From NCBI GenBank assembly GCA_037042915.1, contig CM073200.1, forward strand, positions 930,001 to 994,000: 64,000 nucleotides of DNA, in the 5' to 3' direction. The first letter of the stretch is position 1, and the number at the start of each line of letters is the position of its first letter. The translations under genes were made by a program, and so were the position numbers. The notes under the pieces were generated by a model. The model saw nothing but the letters and a program-made list of their open reading frames with translations. It searched no databases and was not told where the DNA came from. Of the stretch, positions 9,461 through 59,045 are shown piece after piece. Origin of the DNA: Auricularia sp. M13 (taxonomy: Eukaryota > Basidiomycota > Agaricomycetes > Auriculariales > Auriculariaceae).

Positions 9461-12400
9461 TTATTGCTGCTGCTTCACCGCCGGGCGCGGGGCGAACGTG
9501 TAGTGCACTTCGCGCGAGGCGTCGTCTACGTCGTGTCTGCCGCGGCGATCGCCAATCGTAAGTGAGTGAGCGAGTGAGTGAGTGAGTGGGAGGGAGGGAG
9601 AGAGCGAAGGGTGACGAGGAGCAAGGCAGAGATAAAGGGGGCAGGGAGCAAGGGAGAGATAGGGGAGATATGGGAGAGGGGCAAAAGGAACTGAGACAGA
9701 AGACGCACGCTGAGCGGAGATGCGCGAGCATCTCCTTCCCGGAGAACGTCCGACTCGGCGTCGCGCAGCGCAGGCAGGCGTACCGCATGCCTCCTTCTCG
9801 GGCCGCCTGAGCCTCCTCCGCGTTGGATGCGGTGCGACTTGGAGCGGGCGCGGGCGCGGGCGCGGGCTGGGCGTTGAGTTGGAGGTGGAGTTGGGCTTGG
9901 GCTGGAGCTTTTCTATTGATCATGACAGCCACGGCGCCTGCATCCGAGTCGATATTGCCGGCGGCGGAACTCGGACTTTGGCTATGGCTGGGAGGCGGAG
10001 GCGGAGGCGGAGGAGGAGCTTGGTCGACGGTGGACGTCGCTGGCTCCGGGTTCGCTTGACGCGCTTCGACGACCGGCTTGGTATCGGTGGGCTCCCGGGA
10101 CGCACCTCGCCTTGGAGGTTCACTGGCAACCGTGACGCCTGCGGCAGCGCCCTCCAAGCTTAGGCTCCCATCGGCGCAAGGCTCAGGCTTCGTATCACCG
10201 TCACGGTGACGGGCGACGATCGGTCCAACGCCGGCCGGACTCGTCGGAGAAACGGGTCCGGGCGACGGGGGCCGCCTCGTGCGTTTGGGTTGTTCCGGAA
10301 CGTGAAGGGCGGGAGGCCGCGTTGAGACTGACGGGGGAGGGAGAGCTGCGGGGCCAGCGTCGACACTTGAACGCGAAGTACGGTCTGGCATGCAAGTCGA
10401 TTCGGACACGGCTGCGAGAACACACTGGTCAACACGCACGTCACGTGACCTCGGGCTGGACAACGGCACACACAGACCTCCAAGCGCAGGCGAACGCGAA
10501 AGCAAACCGCCCAAGTTCCGAGTCGCACTCCGAGTCGGGCCATCCGCAGCAGGGCCGGTTTCGGGCATCGGCGCGTCGCTGAGGGTGAGGTCGATCGTCT
10601 CGGCTCTCTGCCGGCGCGTGACCAGCTCGAAGGCCGCGACGACCGCGGCCGTCTCATCGTCGCTCGAGCTTGAGCTGGAAATGGATATCGCGCGGCGCTT
10701 CTCCGGCGGGCCGGCGGAATCTGCACCAGGTCGCGTGGCTATTGGTACTGGAAGCGGTCTCGTCGCAGCTGGAATCGGTCGCGTGTCAGTGGGTGCTGCA
10801 GTCGGTCGTGGCGCAGTCGGCGTTGGTATCCCCACCGCTGGAGCTGGCCGTATCGGTGCTGGAGCTGGCCGCATCGGTGCTGGAGCTGGCCGTATCGCAG
10901 CTGGAGCCGGTCGTATCGAGCCTGGAGCCGGTCGTGCCGCTGCTACAATGAATATTACAAAACCTACGAAATACTCATAGCACACTTACAAGAAGACGCG
11001 GCAGCTCGCGTCGGTTCTGCCGGCGCGCGATGCTGCAGTGACAGCGGTACTTCGGTTAGTATGCCAGATCTCATGCTGGAGGACTCATCGCCACGACGTG
11101 ACGCACCGGTTTCTGTGTGTGCAGCTGCTCCTCGGACCGGGCCGTAGCATCACAGTCGCTGCTGCTCGCGCTACTGGAATCGTCCACCATGATGACCTCG
11201 CGGGTGGGTGCAGGCCGACTCGACGAGGCAGTAGGCTTTCCGTGGCCGCGAACGGCGGGTTGACGGGCGTGCGGGTCTGAGTCGGACGAGCTGCTGCTGC
11301 TGTACGAACGTCTGCGCTTGGCAGGTGCCCGTGGTGCCCGACTGGACGACGGGTGCGGGGGACTGCGAGCAACCGCCTTGCGCGGCGGGCGTCGTGCCTC
11401 CGGGACCTCGCGGGGCTGGGGATTCCCGATTGAGGCGTCAGAGCTGCGACTCGGAGGGGCGGGAGAACGGTGCGGCGGGAGTGGCTGCATTGCCTGTGCG
11501 TTGTTGGGTTTGAGCTCGATCAGGTGTCTAGACACACGCGAGTTCAGCAGTTGCGTCGGGCGAAGTTGGATACGAGTCGGCGGGACGCACCTGTTCTTCA
11601 GATGCACGAGCATCACAGTGAGCGCGGAGACGTGCCCGCAGTGCCGGCATTCATAGCGCTTCTCCACGCTGCCGCGGTCCTCTGATTTCGTGTGTACATC
11701 AAGGACAGTTATCGGGTCCTGCGCGGGCGCTGTGAGTGACCTCCGGAATTCTTTTCCCCGGGCGTAATCCTCGACGTTGTGCCTGGATGTCAGACACCGC
11801 GTTGGAAAACGGCAGAAAACAGCTTGAAATAATGAGACTTTACCGTTTCTCAAGATGCCGCTTGACATCCTTCAGCGAGCGCAGAACCTGGCTCGCGGCA
11901 GGACAGAGAACGCATTGCCACAGCTCCGCATCTTCGTCCAGCCTTCGCATTTGACGCTCAGTAGCTACAGATGACGGCCGCCACATTGTCGTCACGTCGC
12001 ACTGCGCGTGTAAGCGATGAGTGTGCTCGACCTTAGGCGGGTCAGCACTTAGCGACAACTCGGTCGTGCAGAGACGGCTGAGACGCACCGCCTGTCTCCA
12101 ACTGAGCACCAGCGGCCACTCGTCCCGGCAGAGGGTGCACTGCAGCCTAATGGGCGACTCGTCAAGCTGCGCAATCGTCGCGCGCGTGATCTCGATGCCG
12201 GAGAATCTGCAGTACTCCCTGGCGACCGTCGCGCCGAGCGCGTCGTAGCGCAGCCCGTCCGCCGTCCACGGGCCCTGCGCCGTCGCGTACGGCAGCGGCC
12301 CAAACTCCATGGCCCTGAGGTGCGCACCGAGCAGCATGTGCGGGTAGGTGAGCGGCGCGGGGTCGGCGCCGCGGACGAAGACGGCGAGCGCCAGGCGGAG

Positions 12401-13960
12401 CCACGCTGCGTCGTCTGGGCGGTTGGGGAGAAGCCTCAATAGCTGCTGCTCGACCTCCCGTCGCCATGTGTCGACGATTGTCGTAACGTCCTTGGCCAGA
12501 GCCACGACCTGCGCGTCGCTCGCGCCATCCAGCCGCGCTTGGACGTCGCGCATACGGGAGATATCTCCGAATGGAACTTGAGCTTCCCAGCCGCGGGGAA
12601 TGTAACCGCCTAAAAAATTGCGGTAGTGTTCGTGAAGCAGTGCGACCTTAATGCTCAGCGCGCCTCGCACTTGATCCAGTCTCGGCTGGACCTTGTTCAC
12701 TAATCGCGTCCATGCTAGGGATTATCGTAATTGGCATACTGCTGCACGCTGCGAGAGACGTATCTCTCACCCAGTCCAGTTCCCGAGAGCACTGCGTCGC
12801 TGATGGTCGCAGGGAGCTCAGCCTCGACGTCCTCGGCTCGATAGCCCATCTCCACGAATTTAGCCACAATACTAAGTAGATGATGATTACTGCGTGATCT
12901 CGAAAACAGCAGCACGTACCGCTTCCGCAGCTCCGACTGAGCACCTCCCGCACATGCGTCCTTGAACAACTTCTGCCACTGGCAGTCGGAATGAGTCTCC
13001 CGAGAGCACATTGGACGAGGGAGTGAGACGCACGCGTTCACCCTCCGCCACGAACTGTGTCTGATGTCACACGTTTAGCAGCCAGCGAAAAGAGGTACTG
13101 ACGTCGAGAACTTCTTCAACATACTCCTTGCGTTTCCTGATAAACGCCTCTCGGGATCTCTTCGCAGCCGCATCTCCTGCGTCAAGCTTCTGGTTCAAGC
13201 GCTTGAGCTGCCCATGAACCGACAAGACCTCTGGCACCCAATAATACTCGACCGTGGTCCCGCCGCCAGCAACTGTCGAGTTGGTCTGAATAAACAGATA
13301 ATATAGCATGAGACTGACGTACTCTTGCTGTAGGGAACAAGCTTCAGGATATCGACAGTCACGCCGGGAAGCGCGACCACGACACGATTGCTCTTCACGT
13401 GTTCGGTGTGGCAAGCCGAGCAGAACCGCATCCGCAGCCCCCAGTCGACCTCGCGCGTCGTGGGCTTTCCACAGTGCTTCGAGCGCATGAGGCAGGGCAG
13501 AAATCAGCACTGGTCCTGGCGCACCTGGCACTTCTTCACAAACAGCAGCGACGTCCACTCGCTCTCACTCATCGAGGCCGGGCACCGTGGCGCGCGGGGG
13601 CCCGGCATATTCACACGTGACCGTATCCAAATGTCGTTGGCCGCATCCTTTTGGAGAACGTCCTTGACAGTATCGAATGCCGTGCATAGCGCGACCAGGT
13701 CCGCTGGCAGCACGTGCGCTAGCAGCTATAACGAAAATTTGGGTGTTTATAAAGACAAAAAAACACTACTGGTGGCGTACGGCGCGTAGAAGGCGCGGGC
13801 TTGCGCGCTTTATGAGGCCAGGGAGGGTGAGCGGTTCGTCGTGAGCATCGCGAGTCGCCGTCGTTCGCCGTCGTTTCGCGGGACGATCGGCTGCAGCGGC
13901 CCCGGCGTGTCCCGTGATAACGACCTCCTCCTCGCCGCTGTCGCGCGCCCGACGCGTCAT
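9461..13960 (-). CDS. Gene A: F-box-like / four-Cys / split-C2H2 zinc-finger protein
   Basis: Twelve exons: 13960-13781, 13725-13525, 13476-13323, 13272-13103, 12996-12920, 12871-12771, 12714-11844, 11782-11591, 11527-11107, 11032-10990, 10942-9709 and 9536-9461. They give 1,239 residues with every phase closing. A basic N-terminus with KRRR is followed by an F-box-like helix set (VLPADLVALCTAF, about 61-100). A four-Cys motif KCQHCGK...RFCSACH (from about 125) and an RKEYVEEVLD...AKFVEMGY module follow, typical of a family many-copied in mushrooms. C2H2 fingers are WQCVLC...HLEKR|H, YECRHC...HLKNR|H and YACLRC...HLRSA|H. A Pro-Ala repeat region (RPAPAPIRPAPA type) and acidic-Ser stretches lie in exon 11. 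Nuclear adaptor or DNA-binding roles are inferred only. Every finger is split by a phase-2 intron before its last His. Exon 11 could hide one more intron. Confidence 0.8.
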
Positions 13961-14309: not shown

Positions 14310-14921
14310 TTATTCTGCGCTTAGGCGTGGTTTCTTGCGAATCGCGCGCCCGTCGTCCCCTCGCATCGGCAGAAAATGTTCTCTGAAGACCGGCTGGTTA
14401 ATCTCATGCCTGTGATACTCTGGGGTCAGCGTCAAGTTTTTGGGGGTCACGCATGCATTGCACGCACACGCGGTCGAGATGTGTGCGAAGTTCCGAGTAG
14501 AGGTAGCTTTGGCCGTTGTTGGGGCAGAGCTGACAGAAGTGCTTTCTTGTGTCTTTGCAGTTTGGCTTGCGCCTCTTCCTGGACTGCGAGCCGTTCAACG
14601 TGATGGCTGCAGCTCCGTTACCAGGAGCCGGCCCGTCTTCACCAGAGCTATCGTCAGTCGTCTCGCCGGTCGAGTCCCTGCAGTCAGATTCTCCGTCTTC
14701 ATTTTGGTTACGATTTCCTGGATTTGCGTAATGAGGAGGCTTATCAGGTTCAAATGCAGCAGAGATTGATGACGTACTCCTGAGCAGTATACAGTGTTCC
14801 CCATATACATAGGTACGCAGGCCGTGCCTATGAAGAAGATCAGGATTGAAGCGAGAGGTTAATCAAAAAAGAAGGACTTCTGTGTTAAATGGTTGTGCAT
14901 CTCCGGTGCATCGAGAGGGTT

Positions 14922-14928: not shown

Positions 14929-17900
14929 CAAAAGTACCAGGCAAAATGATAAAACATCCCCGTTAAGAATGTCATGTTTTGTTTAAATATTCCCGTTAAG
15001 GATTGCCAGCCAGATATTCCATGTCCATGAGATATATTATGTGCTGTGTTAAATACACTGGCTGCTCGCCAATAGAGCTTCAATCAAGATCCGGAGTTAA
15101 ATTTTCTCTGCGATCAATGTTCTCATTGTTGATCAAACAACCAGAGCCATGTCAATTACAATTATTTCTATGGGCTACAGCTGCTGAATTCGACGGCATT
15201 TATGGACTGTACGACTGTTTAATCAAATCAGATTTTGTCAATTAACATAAAACATGATACATAAACCTGTCAAGACTGAGTTGTACAGGCAGGTGTCAAT
15301 CCTAGCGGCTGTTGAACCACGACAGCTGCCACACTCCTAGCAGCTGTCAAACCATTGCAGCTGTCGACAGTTGTCAGCTGTCGTCCAGGAATGGCATTGA
15401 CGTACCTGCACATCAAGGATGAATCAAACAGTCTTGGCTCTGATTGATCAAATGTATACTGATGAAACAAATGAAAATGTGTACAAAATGACCTTCGCAG
15501 GATGGAACCATCGCTCCCTATTTTCACCTGCTGCATGAGGCATGAGCAGTGGCAGACCATCCATGAGCATTAACCAACTGGACTAAGTGACCATGCTCAA
15601 CCACTGTTAATTACTTAATATATCCCCACATATCTCGCACGTTAAATTAGTTGGCTGGCCGATTAATGTCCAGATGCCAATGTCAAACTGTCGCAGGTGC
15701 CAAAAGCATCTGTCATAGTCAGGCCTGGCAGATGCCTCTTAGACAGCTGCCCAACCTGCCAACAGCACTATAAACCATCAGCCACTCATGATTGAACATC
15801 TTGAGATTCAATAATCAGAGTGTTCCAAACGCAACAAGTCCTTTTCATGATTGAACGTACTGCAGTGCAACCCAAAAGAGTGTTTTGAGAGTACAAGTCC
15901 TTCCAGGTTCAGCATGTTTGAACGATCAGTTTTGATTGATCAAGCACACGCTTGGCCCTCAAGGCCCTGCGTGTTGCAGTACTATGCACAGTAAGTAATG
16001 GGAGAGTGACAAGATAGTTCAGTATGATACACAAGACTTGATGGCACCACCCGTGGGGATGATGCGAGGAGAGCCTGTGCAGTGGGAGCCCAGTGTGGAT
16101 TGGTGACCTGAGTACCGGATGGTACGTTGATGGGACCAGTGTTCATCCTGTCGAAGACATTAAATTAAGATTTGAGATTTGACAAAGGCTGCACCAAGAC
16201 TCTGGCTATAGAATGGTATTATGATATTCCTTTTTAATGAGCATTTCATCTGTGTACGAGTGAGCAAAGTCTGCCAGCCAGTGTAGCAGAGTCACCTCGC
16301 GGCCTCAGCCACCAGTGTTTCTCTCACCGCATTTAAGATGTCGAACTAGGATTCGAAATTCAACAATTTCAGCACCAATGGTATAGTAAGAAGTCTGTCT
16401 GGTAACCTCCTTTTTAGGATGACATTTCGACTCTATACATGTGAGCAAACTCTCACGAAGGGTTATTACATCATTCCAAACATTACAACTGTAAAACTCG
16501 GCAGAAGCCTGAGGCGAGAACGACAATGTCTGCTGTATAGTGTACACTATCCCAGGCATCCATATGAAGTCAATTGGTCCAGTTCCAAGCCTTCGGCAGC
16601 AGGGCAAAGTATTTCAGAATGTGTCTGGTTTCCTATTTTCCATGTTTCAGAATGTGTCTGGTTTCCTATTTTCCATGTTTCAATACTTTGCCCTGCTGCC
16701 GAAGGCTTGGAACTGGACCAATTGACTTCATATGGATGCCTGGGATAGTGTACACTATACAGCAGACATTGTCGTTCTCGCCTCAGGCTTCTGCCGAGTT
16801 TTACAGTTGTAATGTTTGGAATGATGTAATAACCCTTCGTGAGAGTTTGCTCACATGTATAGAGTCGAAATGTCATCCTAAAAAGGAGGTTACCAGACAG
16901 ACTTCTTACTATACCATTGGTGCTGAAATTGTTGAATTTCGAATCCTAGTTCGACATCTTAAATGCGGTGAGAGAAACACTGGTGGCTGAGGCCGCGAGG
17001 TGACTCTGCTACACTGGCTGGCAGACTTTGCTCACTCGTACACAGATGAAATGCTCATTAAAAAGGAATATCATAATACCATTCTATAGCCAGAGTCTTG
17101 GTGCAGCCTTTGTCAAATCTCAAATCTTAATTTAATGTCTTCGACAGGATGAACACTGGTCCCATCAACGTACCATCCGGTACTCAGGTCACCAATCCAC
17201 ACTGGGCTCCCACTGCACAGGCTCTCCTCGCATCATCCCCACGGGTGGTGCCATCAAGTCTTGTGTATCATACTGAACTATCTTGTCACTCTCCCATTAC
17301 TTACTGTGCATAGTACTGCAACACGCAGGGCCTTGAGGGCCAAGCGTGTGCTTGATCAATCAAAACTGATCGTTCAAACATGCTGAACCTGGAAGGACTT
17401 GTACTCTCAAAACACTCTTTTGGGTTGCACTGCAGTACGTTCAATCATGAAAAGGACTTGTTGCGTTTGGAACACTCTGATTATTGAATCTCAAGATGTT
17501 CAATCATGAGTGGCTGATGGTTTATAGTGCTGTTGGCAGGTTGGGCAGCTGTCTAAGAGGCATCTGCCAGGCCTGACTATGACAGATGCTTTTGGCACCT
17601 GCGACAGTTTGACATTGGCATCTGGACATTAATCGGCCAGCCAACTAATTTAACGTGCGAGATATGTGGGGATATATTAAGTAATTAACAGTGGTTGAGC
17701 ATGGTCACTTAGTCCAGTTGGTTAATGCTCATGGATGGTCTGCCACTGCTCATGCCTCATGCAGCAGGTGAAAATAGGGAGCGATGGTTCCATCCTGCGA
17801 AGGTCATTTTGTACACATTTTCATTTGTTTCATCAGTATACATTTGATCAATCAGAGCCAAGACTGTTTGATTCATCCTTGATGTGCAGGTACGTCAATG

Positions 17901-18367
17901 CCATTCCTGGACGACAGCTGACAACTGTCGACAGCTGCAATGGTTTGACAGCTGCTAGGGAGTGTGGCAGCTGTCGTGGTTCAACAGCCGCTAGGATTGA
18001 CACCTGCCTGTACAACTCAGTCTTGACAGGTTTATGTATCATGTTTTATGTTAATTGACAAAATCTGATTTGATTAAACAGTCGTACAGTCCATAAATGC
18101 CGTCGAATTCAGCAGCTGTAGCCCATAGAAATAATTGTAATTGACATGGCTCTGGTTGTTTGATCAACAATGAGAACATTGATCGCAGAGAAAATTTAAC
18201 TCCGGATCTTGATTGAAGCTCTATTGGCGAGCAGCCAGTGTATTTAACACAGCACATAATATATCTCATGGACATGGAATATCTGGCTGGCAATCCTTAA
18301 CGGGAATATTTAAACAAAACATGACATTCTTAACGGGGATGTTTTATCATTTCTCCTGGTACTTTTG
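14929..18367. mobile_element. 3.4-kb palindromic foldback transposable element inside gene B
   Basis: The left arm 14929-16613 (1,685 bp) and right arm 16682-18367 (1,686 bp) are reverse complements. The differences I saw are one inserted C (near 15346 versus the right arm near 17958) and two bases near the outer ends (GCAAAATG versus AGAAATG). The outer ends are CAAAAGTACCAGG / CCTGGTACTTTTG. The centre 16614-16681 is unpaired. Near the ends lie two direct CCCGTTAAG motifs (14958 and 14992), the type of subterminal repeat a transposase could bind. Only short, unrecognised frames occur in the arms, so it is probably non-autonomous. It is flanked by CGAAGAA on both sides. The superfamily is not clear. 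Confidence 0.9.
16614..16681. repeat. Central spacer: two 34-bp tandem repeats
   Basis: The only part of the element that is not palindromic: two copies of TCAGAATGTGTCTGGTTTCC followed by TATTTTCCATGTTT. It would form the loop if the arms fold back. Confidence 0.9.
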
Positions 18368-18374
18368 CGAAGAA
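18368..18374. repeat. Right target-site duplication CGAAGAA
   Basis: Direct copy of 14922-14928 at the right end of the palindromic element. The next outer bases differ on the two sides, so the duplication is 7 bp. Confidence 0.88.
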
Positions 18375-21300
18375 GAGCACAACTTGCAGATGAAGCGCTC
18401 GCTTTGCGCGTTTTTCCTGAGCTCCGGACACATAACATAGTCTATACCAACTCTCGCGCGCTGTTGGAAATGCCTAGGGGAAAGTGAGCGTGTGATCTCT
18501 TGGGCGAAACAACCGAGGCACACGTACTTGCTGGCCAGGTGCTGTAAAAGCCCACGCAAATTAAGCTGCCGCCGGTCCTTGCAGTGCATGCACTCGAAGG
18601 CCTTCCAGAAGGGATTCATAATGCGTATTCCCAGATGATCATAGATATCCGTGAGGGCGTCTGCGTCCCTCATTGGGAAGCGCGATGAAGTGTTACGCAA
18701 TTGCTTTTGCTTGTGATCAGCGCTGCCAGTAGCACGATTATCGGCGGCCTCGCCAATGTGCGCAAGCGGGTGTCGTTCGTAATCCCTACCCCCAACAGGG
18801 TCGAGAACTTTGTGGCTGTCGTGAATTTGACAGTTCAGCTTCGGGGGAGGGAGTCGAAAAAGCGAATTGTCGCACCACGTGAAAAGGTGAGAATCTATCT
18901 GTGACCAACGCAGTCTCTTTGGCGGTTGGCCCGAAGACGACCCTTCGCAGAGTTTACAAGTGTAAACCGGCTGCTGACACCATGGAGATAGAGTTTCGTC
19001 CACGTCGTCATCTGCAACAGCATAATCTTGTCCCAGGATCGGCTCTGCCAGGGAGTGACTAAAAGATGTCGAATGAGCCAATGAACTGTTTGCGACACAC
19101 CCGACGCACCTCTTGGCGAGATGAATTTGCATGGTGGAGGGCTTGAAACGACGCATTCGATCCACGGCGCGCGGGCATCTCGCGCAAGAATATAGTCTAT
19201 GGCTGTCCGCAAGCAGCTGCCCTAGACCATGCGCTGAAGGCGGACCATCAGCCATGTCGACAGTCTCGCCGCGGTCGATCGAGATCTGTTGATGCGCCTT
19301 AAAAGCGTAGACCACGCTGTCCGTGTCATCCACATCTTCGTCACTCGCGGAAGAGCTTTCATCATCATCTGTCGCAGTCGAACCACCCGCGGAAGAGCTT
19401 TCGACATCATTATCATCTGTCGTGTTCGAATCCTCATGAGTTCAAGCTCTTGCCACTGTGTCGGAGGGAACTTACCTGAGACTGTATCCTGGCTGAAGAG
19501 TGGATCGCGATCCTGCGCTGCGGGGCTGCCTAGTATGGGCGAGCGAGGTGAAGCTGGCGGAGACAGCGGAGCGTGATGGAGTATAGAACAACTTGTTCGC
19601 GCAGTTCCCTGCAGCAATGTCGCTTCCTCTTCGGCAAAGGAGACTCTACGGTTTCGCTTCCGCTGCCCGGGGTCTTCAGCGCCGATAGAATGTGTGATAC
19701 TCTTGCGGGAACGGCTTCCAGAATCTTCTCGCGGAGGGGGCATCGGAGGCAGCCCAGATTGTGACGACGACCGCAGTACCACATCGTGCCTTGAGAGATT
19801 GAGTTCGCTTTGCAGCTAAGCTGAAAATGTACATACCTATCGCCCAGGTGTGTCAAAGCACTGGGTAATGATGCAGAAAACTCGCAGTATCTGCAATGGA
19901 AAGCTGATTCGCCGCCCTCCTCCAAATGTAGCTGCAGCAAGGTCCAAGGGTCGAAAAGCGGGGCGGTTGGGGTTCTGGCGTAATGCTCCCCTCTTGATGC
20001 CCGGACTATGGAATGCCTAGCCGATCAGAGTGAGAAAAGACAAACGAGTTACAGTATAGAACATTGCATACGTCTCGCTTAGATGCCTTTCAGTGTTGGC
20101 AACAGTACGGAGCTTTCGCGACGACCGACAGACCGTGCAGCTCCATATGGGCATCTCCGCTTCCAATTGCGAGGCTCGAGCGCCGACTGCCGATGAATGG
20201 GGTTTCCAGGAGCCCGAGCCTTGGCCTGGATGCATCTCATGCAGGTGCTTTATCTATGAAAATATTCAGAAACGCCAAACGGATCAACACAAATACGCAC
20301 AGCTTGTCGCCAGCTGAGCACAAGTGGCCAATCCTCTTTGCAATTCCGGCACTGTAAGCGTAGCGCGGAGTCATCCAGCATGATACCCGTCGCAGTTGCG
20401 TAATTCAAGGACGCGAGTTGGCAATATTGGCGAACAACACTGGCGCCCGCCTCGTCGTACCTCAGTCCCTTCATCGACCAGGGGCCGCCAGCCGTAGCAT
20501 ACTTCAGCTCGCCGTACTCGAGAGAGAGGACATGCGATACGAGTAGCATGTTGGGATAGGAGAGGGGGGTCGGATCGTCAGCCCTGCGCCAGATGGACGA
20601 CGCAAGTTTCAAGCGATCTGGAAGGGAGGCATCGACTCTGCGAACGCCTTTGGGGACAGGGAGCGTCTCCAAGAGCTCGCTCTCGACGTCTTCGCGCCAG
20701 CTCTCAACGATAGACGGGATCCGGCTCACAAGATCTAGAATGTCCTTCGAGTTGCTGTTACCCAGCGCAAGCTTGCGCAGGTGTGACTTGACGTCCGGTA
20801 GGCAGATGATATCGCCGAAAGGGACCAGTGTCTCCCACCCCCGCGCGGCGTATGTCTTGAGGAATCGACGATATTCGCTGCGCACCAGCTCAACGGACGA
20901 TGCGGCCATCAATGGCTGTCGGCGCGCATCCAATGTGGCACTGTGCTTCTTCAAGAAACTCGTCCAGCCTGTAAAGCGATGCATCTGAGGACTAAAAAGG
21001 CGCACAAATGTGCACACGAACAGGATAGCGACGACTCGGTGATTCTGACGTCTTGCAAAACTTCACGAACGTCGACCAAAGGATAACCCAACTCGACGAA
21101 CTTCGCCACTACCCTGGGAACTAGTCAGAAAATGTTCGTGAATGCGTCAACGCGACTTCAAACCGTGCACGAAGGGAGTCCTGTGCTTCCCTTTGTCGAT
21201 CTTTGCACTCTTTCTGCCACTATTTGCTATCAGACGTCCTAGCCACAATCGTGAGAGCTTCCCGCACCTTTCTACATTCGGAGACGGCCTAAAGGAAATT

Positions 21301-57197: not shown

Positions 57198-58100
57198 AAC
57201 CAGCCGCCACTTTCAAACTCCGACAAATGTCTACGCCAAGTAGCGGCTGGGATGCACCGTCGGGGTTTTGGCTGGATCGAAATTCGCAGATAGGCGTGTG
57301 AAAAAAGACTTAGCAGAATCGGCCTGCCCCCCACCACTCAAAAAATGTTCCCTGACACTCATAATGGAAATTCATTTTTATTACAATCTGGTGCGATTGA
57401 GCATAGGAATATTTCGACGTTTGGAAAATAGCCAGTAATTACTGGGAGCTCCGGAGCGCCCTCTAACTTAGCTGCCAATGAGTATGAAAGACCCTAGGGA
57501 CATAATCTGACACATTGTGAGGGTACTGCATGCCTTTGCCGTCTTCCAGACGTGCTGGTGTGGACGGACACGACCACGAAGCCATTTTCTCGCGCTAGAA
57601 AGATTGTAGTGTGCAAGCGTGGACTAGAGACGGCTCAGAATACAATAATACATGGTTTTGGGCGTAATTTTAGAAGAGAAAGGTCCCTGGGCACGTTTGA
57701 GCGCGCACGAGGTCATCACGGCGGGGTGTCGGGAAGCGCACGAGCTCCCGATGCAGACAGACGGTCTGAACACTCAAATTGTACTCCAGAAATGTTAAAT
57801 AACATGCATATCTTATTTTCAACGTTTGCGGAGGTTTGGGCTATCTGCACTAATTACTAGCTATTTTCCGAACGTCCAAATATTCTTATGCTCAATCGCA
57901 CCAGATTGTAATAAAAATGAATTTCCATTATGGGTGTCAGGGAACATTTTTTGAGTGGTGGGGGGCAGGCCGATTCTGCTAAGTCTTTTTTCACACGCCT
58001 ATCTGCGAATTTCGATCCAGCCAAAACCCCGACGGTGCATCCCAGACGTTCGTTCCGAACGGAGTTCTTCAAACTCCGACGAACGTCTGGTTACGAGACT
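57198..58100. mobile_element. Inverted-repeat element, copy 1
   Basis: About 230-bp inverted repeats face each other. 57247-57430 (CTGGGATGCACCGTCGGGG ... CTCAATCGCACC complement ... GGAAAATAGC) is the reverse complement of about 57865-58048. The interior is non-coding and AT-richer. The right end carries a hairpin (AGACGTTCGT ... ACGAACGTCT, about 58046-58090) followed by GGTTACGAGACTAG. No clean target duplication was found. A hairpin followed some 10 nt later by CTAG is reminiscent of Helitron 3' ends, but long inverted repeats are not, so the class is open. Confidence 0.7.
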
Positions 58101-58107
58101 AGTAGGC

Positions 58108-59045
58108 TCGTAACCAGCCGCTACATTCAAACTCCGACAAATGTCTTCGTCATACTCCGACAAATGTCTTCGTCATGTAGCGGCTGGGACGCACCGTCGC
58201 GGTTTAAATAGGTCAGAAATCCCAGATAGCCGTGTGAAAAAAGACTTTGCCGCATCCACCTTGCCCCCACCACTCGGAAAATGTTCCCTCAAGCCCATAA
58301 CAAAAGTTTGATATTATTGCTTTTGGAAGCGATTGGACATATGAATATTTTGACCCCGGAAAATACACAGTAATTAGCTGGAGCACCGGGGAAGGGTTTT
58401 ATGCTCTCCCGGACGGTTTCTAATGCTCTAGGGCCATACTAGGGCTTATTGTGAGGGTAAAAGCTGTGTTTGCGGGCTTCAGGCGGTGTCGGTGTCGACG
58501 GTCACGGTGATGCAGCCCTTCTACCGCGTTACCAGGACTATACTATCCGAGCAGGCATGGAATATAGCTCTGTATACCTTATTCTGTTTTGACAGCTCTT
58601 GTGCAAGCTACCGGCTCAACAGAGGGACCTCAAGGCTGGATTTGGTCGGCTCACCAGGGTGCCAAACAGACCGTACCCTCCCAAGACGGCCGTACCCTCT
58701 GAACCCTCCAATTCTTAATCAGAGTGTTTGGAATGGCCCGGGACAGTGTTTCATAAGTCTATAGAGGTTTACATAGCCTGTACTAATTACTGTTTATTTT
58801 CCGGTGGTCAGAAATTTTCTATGTTAAATCGCTTCAAAATGAAATAATAACGATTTTCCATCATGGGTCTGAGAGAACATTTTCCGAGTGGTTGGGTCAA
58901 GGTCGGTGCGGCTAAGTCTTTTTTCACACGGCTATCTAGAATTTCTCACCTATCTAAACTGCGACGGTGCTTCCCAGACGTTCGTTGCCGAACGGAGTTT
59001 CCAACTCCGACAACGAACGTCTGGTTACGAGACTACGAGACTAGC
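58108..59045. mobile_element. Inverted-repeat element, copy 2 (tandem)
   Basis: A diverged second copy in the same orientation. The left part (GTAACCAGCCGCTACATTCA ... GACGCACCGTCGCGG ... GTGTGAAAAAAGACTTTGCC, 58108-58385) is inverted at 58785-58975 (... GCTAAGTCTTTTTTCACACG ... GCGACGGTGCTTCCCAGACG). It ends in a compensated version of the same hairpin (AGACGTTCGTTG ... CAACGAACGTCT) followed by GGTTACGAGACTACGAGACTAG. The interior shares motifs with copy 1 (CAGTAATTA near the left repeat, then TTGTGAGGGTA). No coding capacity. Confidence 0.7.

Follow-up and report, generated by a model that had tools for sequence, protein, structure and literature searches.

The systems closest to the element analyzed here, a 3.4-kb palindrome within a 64,000-nucleotide stretch of Auricularia sp. 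M13 (contig C8:930001-994000, referred to below as the window), are certain transposons of the KDZ group and several foldback elements. Kyakuja, a KDZ group of Agaricomycotina, is described as producing 7-bp target duplications and as having 5'-CA..TG-3' termini and tips that are not inverted repeats of one another; the elements contain a transposase gene along with TET/JBP genes, and terminal inverted repeats are stated to be lacking in Kyakuja-1_LB and Kyakuja-2_LB (PMC12730594). KDZ1 of Cryptococcus neoformans, a transposase-bearing element of ~11 kb, is reported with 241-bp inverted repeats and 8-bp target duplications (PMC12810828). The foldback element Galileo, a member of the P superfamily in Drosophila, includes two-repeat copies with a within-copy repeat identity of 98-100% (PMC3573991), and Tm1, a Mutator/Foldback element of root-knot nematodes, is given 9-bp duplications and tandem-repeat arms with an average identity of 93.15% (PMC3169594). 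Y-chromosome palindromes are inverted duplicates that undergo intrachromosomal gene conversion (PMC3403216). The window palindrome belongs to a family of non-autonomous DNA transposons of the foldback type, which is quite probably mobilized in trans by a Kyakuja-type KDZ transposase and whose arms are quite probably kept alike by copying from one arm to the other.

The Auricularia palindromes resemble the described Kyakuja elements in their 7-bp duplications, CA..TG termini and unlike tips (with the exception of the window copy), and KDZ transposases are abundant in the genome. They differ in consisting almost entirely of inverted repeat with no recognized gene; the KDZ element delimited on contig C6 (see below) also departs from Kyakuja in that its two ends are alike. 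KDZ1, as reported, is comparable as a KDZ element that possesses inverted repeats, but its duplications are 8 bp long, it bears a transposase and it is not a palindrome. The likeness to Galileo, as drawn from its description, comprises long inverted repeats, 7-bp duplications (implied for Galileo) and high within-copy identity, whereas Galileo has internally repetitive repeats, an animal host and a P-type transposase. Tm1 is described with a similar arrangement of unlike 7-bp motifs at the outer ends, just inside the duplication, with the inverted repeats behind them. However, the 9-bp duplications and internally repetitive arms of Drosophila FB and Mutator-type foldback elements (9 bp and tandem repeats being the values for Tm1) are not those of the palindromes, which have 7-bp duplications and, in the window copy, a single direct repeat of 20 nt or more, located in the loop. 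Y-chromosome palindromes differ in being chromosomal, non-mobile and set on a sex chromosome. The putative KDZ link, the near absence of non-palindromic sequence and the signs of loop flipping and of patchy homogenization set the family apart from Galileo and Tm1 as these are described. No foldback form linked to KDZ was seen in the accounts of Kyakuja and of KDZ non-autonomous elements consulted, and the combination of KDZ link, palindrome, loop flipping and patchy homogenization was not found in the consulted descriptions of related elements.

The window element and its immediate flanks are composed as follows:

14929-18367, whole palindromic element, 3.4 kb (3,439 bases), contig C8
14922-14928, left target-site duplication CGAAGAA, identical to the 7-mer at 18368-18374
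14929-16613, plus strand, left arm, 1,685 nt, beginning with the tip CAAAAG followed by TACCAGG
16614-16681, loop, 68 nt, containing a 33-bp tandem duplication
16682-18367, minus strand, right arm, 1,686 nt, tip CAAAAG when read inward
18368-18374, right target-site duplication CGAAGAA

The first-pass annotation had described a near-perfect palindrome with arms of 1,685 and 1,686 bp, few differences between them and direct CGAAGAA repeats on either side. The inverted-repeat search and the arm comparison bear out this description, and the repeat was read in both flanks. The arms pair as 14929-15337 with 17959-18367 (409 nt) and 15336-16613 with 16682-17959 (1278 nt), far above chance, and the long inverted repeat by which a foldback element is recognized takes up 3,371 of the 3,439 bases. 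Counted from the tip, the arms of this copy differ by substitutions at positions 14 and 15 and by a one-base indel at position 407. The only direct repeat inside the element (minimum 20 nt) is the 33-bp pair of the loop, 16612-16644 and 16645-16677, which is confined to the window copy among the eight two-armed copies known; the loops of the other seven lack it and are ~35 nt long. The inner 1,296 nt of the palindrome fold as one hairpin.

Palindromes are a known artifact of long-read sequencing. On this background, and with several small odd indels in the arms of one copy (L010) that may be sequencing errors, the element could be taken for a foldback read incorporated during library preparation or assembly. 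That explanation is exceedingly improbable given that palindromes of this family occupy ten places with distinct 7-bp duplications and unlike tips, and that in all eight two-armed copies copy-specific substitutions are common to both arms. The window palindrome is real.

The family was delineated by searching the genome (52.1 Mb, 14 contigs) with three arm segments, namely the 472 and the 102 outermost bases and the 1,278 inner ones. It occupies at least ten places, namely the window copy (W) and loci L009-L017, and is two-armed at eight of them. The main group comprises W and L009, L010, L011, L012, L013 and L014, the latter six 97-98% identical to W, and a second subfamily comprises L015, L016 and L017, 83-84% identical to W. 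L011, located 26 kb from L010, is a single arm that ends 27 bases short of the loop, and L017 retains 648 bases of one arm. Every two-ended copy has CA..TG termini and a 7-bp target duplication, exact in seven of the eight and with one mismatch in L016. The two tips are unlike in seven copies, CAAAAG at one end and CACCAT at the other, each followed by TAC, and most copies have the layout CA-N4-TACCAGG; W is the sole two-ended copy with CAAAAG at both ends. The search for other copies with matching ends and 7-bp duplications, put forward earlier as a check, was thus successful, and the duplications of the eight two-ended copies identify the family as a non-autonomous DNA transposon and not an artifact. 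Palindrome and homologous loop are common to both subfamilies. A coding function of the arms was considered and rejected: four frames of at least ~60 amino acids are present in the W arm and one in that of L015, one pair of which matches over 48 residues, and in the comparison of these two arms the frames are poorly kept between subfamilies.

The candidate source of the mobilizing enzyme was sought through the tips. KDZ transposase yields 149 matches in the genome at E values up to 0.001, which merge by hand into 95 places. The exact sequence CACCATTACCAGG occurs at nine sites, six of them in palindromes and three elsewhere, and with one mismatch allowed at 63 sites compared with 31 for the reversed control. 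Inward of all three exact sites outside the family lies a KDZ match, at most 10.3 kb away and on the expected strand, where a random site would be expected to have KDZ within 25 kb in about 2% of cases (by arithmetic from 95 places in 52.1 Mb). The remaining 53 sites outside the family, which have one mismatch, include none with the expected arrangement within 25 kb and three with KDZ in other arrangements. The three KDZ-side ends are alike inward from the tip: L038 and L039 share 84% over 144 bases, L039 and L040 75% over 85, and L038 and L040 70% over 147 bases, the likeness in this last pair starting one base before the tip.

One of these ends, on contig C6, allowed a prediction of the opposite end. 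The seven bases outside the tip (CCTGGTG) were taken as the duplication, and the genome was searched for GGTA-N4-TG followed by CCTGGTG. Among 58 matches with at most one mismatch (60 for the reversed control) a single one is exact. It is located at C6:3707941-3707957, 8.4 kb past the KDZ match and on the expected side, and the 73-78 bases behind it, which had no part in the search, resemble other KDZ ends (71-77%). The element so delimited is:

C6:3688642-3707950, KDZ element, 19.3 kb, 7-bp duplication CCTGGTG, ends CACCCGTACCAGG and CACCATTACCAGG, located by prediction

Its two ends are 73% alike over 78 bases, and its tips and 7-bp duplication follow the same grammar as those of the palindromes. 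A KDZ enzyme would accordingly be able to recognize the tips of both the palindromes and the KDZ-bearing elements and to cut and paste both, and the KDZ lineage would gain a foldback form. The assignment to the Kyakuja type, made from sequence, is based on the length of the duplication; the palindromes appear to work like Kyakuja, whose features they display at the tips only, and their membership is not settled thereby.

Several observations weigh against the KDZ assignment. The KDZ elements are known from their ends and KDZ matches, none having been read end to end, and the KDZ match of the C6 element contains a stop, possibly an intron. Palindrome and KDZ ends agree over the first 13-16 bases only, and the CAAAAG of the palindromes corresponds to CACCCG in the C6 element. 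For the CAAAAG tip the sole exact KDZ candidate in the expected arrangement is at C5:666838, where 15 bases are identical to the left end of the window element and one end was located. The corresponding sequence CAAAAGTACCAGG is hardly commoner than its reversed control (69 sites with at most one mismatch versus 62), and CAAAAG-like sites outside the family give two KDZ pairings in the expected arrangement versus five in others (51 of 58 sites, a repeated motif having been removed). A further sequence, CAAACGTACCAGG, was tried as a 5' KDZ tip and rejected: seven of its ten sites precede a KDZ match by ~18-23 kb with the correct strand, but their outer flanks are identical, which makes them one internal motif. 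The seven KDZ loci concerned (one each on C1, C6 and C7, two each on C2 and C4) are near-identical around CAAACGTACCAGG and represent a large multiplied element.

Mobilization by another transposase that leaves 7-bp duplications, hAT7-like or MULE, would predict the ends CAAAAGTACC...GGTAATGGTG on a hAT or MULE element. Such hAT elements are described in rust fungi (PMC12730594), and the genome contains 25 hAT and six MULE domain matches. However, the repeated-8-mer hAT ends proposed by the scan (L017, L034 and L036) have CAGTG-like tips, with the proviso that ends were worked out for few hAT loci; among the 21 loci L017-L037 arm sequence was detected in L017 only, as the family arm listed above, and not in the other 20; and it is on KDZ-bearing elements that the exact palindrome tip sits. 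A hAT mobilizer, judged on these loci, or a MULE mobilizer, covered by its domain matches, is unlikely, and a Kyakuja-type KDZ transposase is preferred. The 648-nt arm of L017 lies near a hAT-like gene, whose Dimer_Tnp_hAT match (E 0.083) is below the cut-off. This hAT was rejected as mobilizer, as the scan proposes separate ends for the hAT element (CAGTGGTGGCG, with the 8-mer ATCATGAT). Another hAT element, of ~4.8 kb, is present in three copies 99.6-99.96% alike (L018, L019 and L020) with TAAAGCTCCAACCA ends.

The second part of the proposal concerns the likeness of the arms. Substitution counts for the arm pair of each copy (positions 7-1684, indels excluded) and for an arm and the nearest arm of another copy (positions 7-1676) are, respectively, 2 and 25 in W, 4 and 3 in L010, 4 and 12 in L012, 3 and 21 in L013, 4 and 16 in L009, 0 and 14 in L015, 1 and 14 in L016, and 32 and 24 in L014. 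The first number is smaller than the second except in L010 and L014, hence in six of the eight copies. Arms of L015 and L016 differ at 14-15 sites, and arms of different subfamilies at 251-263, about 15-17% (52 arm pairs). In a maximum-likelihood tree of the 17 arms, seven of the eight two-armed copies have their arms as sisters (support 84/78 for L010, 92/87 for L015, 93/89 for L016 and 100/98-100 for the other four), L014 being unresolved, and the arms do not group by end.

Since palindrome and loop are present in both subfamilies, this architecture probably predates the divergence of the two. Had the arms evolved independently from that time on, those of one copy would be expected to be roughly as different as the subfamilies are; the observed differences are far smaller, which indicates homogenization. 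The near-identity of the window arms had been read earlier as the mark of a very recent event. That reading is not supported, as near-identity (0-4 substitutions) is found in seven of eight copies of a palindrome common to subfamilies 15-17% apart; homogenized arms would provide no clock for the age of an insertion. The differences among main-group copies are few, 3-51 of ~1,670 sites (72 arm pairs), as would be expected if the family were simply young and moved as plain cut-and-paste foldback elements with no exchange between arms. This alternative is very unlikely in view of the same palindrome and loop in the distant subfamily, the agreement of arms within copies in both subfamilies, and the tree, which groups arms by copy and not by end.

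Independent dating was attempted with a retroelement inserted in one copy:

L009 3095-7284 (C1:104894-109083), LTR-type (long terminal repeat) element nested in the right arm of L009, 4.19 kb, CACGG duplication

Its 475-base LTRs have one difference, and the comparison of 1/475 in the LTRs with 3/1,669 in the arms does not discriminate between ages.

The distribution of the remaining differences argues for exchange between arms. Read from the CAAAAG tip, the loop is forward in L012, L014 and L016 and backward in L010, L013, L015 and L009; these seven copies were scorable, having unlike tips and a loop, in contrast to W (like tips) and to L011 and L017 (no loop). At least three flips of the loop relative to the tips are needed on the tree, several forks of which are weak. 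A mismatch at position 1680, adjoining the loop, is common to L009, L012 and L014. Its C is borne by the CACCAT arm in L012 and L014, which have a forward loop, and by the CAAAAG arm in L009, which has a reversed one. The mismatch thus moves with the orientation of the loop, as a crossover outside it would produce. At the other extremity, positions 7-15, just inside the tip, contain five of the 18 substitutions counted between partner arms when L014 is set aside and seven copies remain (binomial P about 4e-8), and six of 47 over positions 7-1676 with L014 included (P about 2e-7). In L014 the stretch 1174-1676 is free of the 31 differences between the arms (P about 1.5e-5), the pattern that conversion limited to the inner part would leave. 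Private changes of L014 number 13 on one arm and three on the other, suggesting that a different source was also copied onto one of the arms. All these P values assume that sites are equivalent and independent of one another, and part of the excess beside the tip may reflect a fast site, as positions 14-15 vary between copies too.

Arm-to-arm gene conversion with crossover would explain the likeness of the arms, the loop flips and the differences on the tip side. The arms would pair, as a cruciform, as a hairpin or during break repair, and one arm would be copied onto the other, with an occasional crossover between the paired arms flipping the loop. Copying would fade toward either extremity of an arm, over the final bases next to the tip and next to the loop, and unlike tips would for that reason usually survive. 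In W, with CAAAAG twice, either one tip would have been overwritten or two like ends would be movable. Three points count against such copying in place. The arms of L010 differ more from one another (4) than from the single-armed L011, the nearest neighbor (3); those of L014 differ at 31-32 sites compared with 24 to the nearest other copy; and the nested LTR pair of L009 (1/475) is of no aid in dating the arms that surround it. In addition, the case for conversion is drawn from sequence patterns in one strain.

The arms might instead be reset at each jump, one arm templating the other in a hairpin intermediate, with differences accruing after insertion as they do between the two LTRs of a retroelement. 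The low number of arm differences in seven of eight copies, with more between most copies, and the exact target duplications in seven of eight would be compatible with such a reset. Copying of a whole arm would, however, erase the unlike tips that seven of eight copies keep, and it would not account for the loop flips, for differences that cluster beside the tips, or for L014, which differs in its outer part and not at 1174-1676; the loop-side mismatch of three copies moves with the loop and was thus not erased. Resetting at each jump is consequently an improbable explanation, and arm-to-arm copying in place is retained as the preferred one. A broader and more tentative proposal is that the palindrome acts as its own maintenance unit, in which pairing of the arms rewrites the halves, flips the loop and repairs the ends such that the element continues to serve as a KDZ substrate as its gene-bearing relatives deteriorate; W, with its tips alike, would represent an end state.

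The family of long palindromes, with its 35-nt loop, persists as mobile elements despite the loss or trimming expected of long perfect palindromes in eukaryotes. If arm-to-arm copying keeps the palindromes perfect, arm identity is unfit for dating insertions of this kind, and loop orientation and tip identity provide a natural readout of palindrome recombination. The main interest of the window lies in the palindrome family and the manner in which its arms stay alike.

The insertion in the window interrupts a gene, referred to as gene B, that has a tandem paralogue, gene A, and the relevant stretches are:

18375-19333, minus strand, gene B coding part on the upstream side of the insertion, rich in cysteine and histidine, open frame, emptied-site reading
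14862-14921, minus strand, gene B coding part on the downstream side of the insertion (NPLDAPEMHNHLTQKSFFFD), emptied-site reading
11840-12700 and 20250-21017, minus strand, tandem paralogue stretches of genes A and B, cysteine/histidine motifs, no Pfam family above cut-off

That a foldback insertion splits gene B, as first proposed, is supported by the 7-bp duplications, the rejoined reading and the other family copies, whose ends are of the same type. On the minus strand of the emptied site FICKLCSSS joins NPLDAPEMHNHL (NPLDAPEMHNHLTQKSFFFD up to the stop), and the rejoined stretch shows a finger-like C-x2-C...H pattern. The first-pass annotation had this join restore exon 13 with a C2H2 finger and the frame down to a stop at 14310. 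The join itself is as claimed; a Pfam scan of the upstream exon detected neither C2H2 nor any other family above cut-off. The stop at 14310 is in frame but is preceded in that frame by stops at 14859 and 14595, and thus reaching it requires splicing, an intron being assumed. A stretch of 1,033 bases from the upstream exon has no match elsewhere in the genome. Pfam scanning also gave an F-box-like protein match below its cut-off, which, with the large number of KDZ transposases, tentatively points to an agaricomycete. Genes A and B are recognizable as tandem paralogues from another gene B exon, 42% alike over 248 amino acids to gene A; the junction exon has no match in gene A, which hence offers no check of the junction. 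The insertion may be recent, considering the perfect duplication and the otherwise readable gene. A read-through transcript of gene B would contain a ~1.7-kb stem, and such a hairpin transcript is a possible source of small RNAs against the palindrome family.

Further inverted repeats of 154-201 nt, 76-97% complementary, are present in the window at 57244-58992. Other self-inverse stretches of 1-3.3 kb (93.9-98.4%) occur in hAT neighborhoods at L024 1-3268 (C9:742000-745267), which is cut by the edge of the locus, and at L037 169-1420 and 8700-9722 (C10); no CA-N4-TACC tips were seen at their ends. Large palindromes may be common in this genome.

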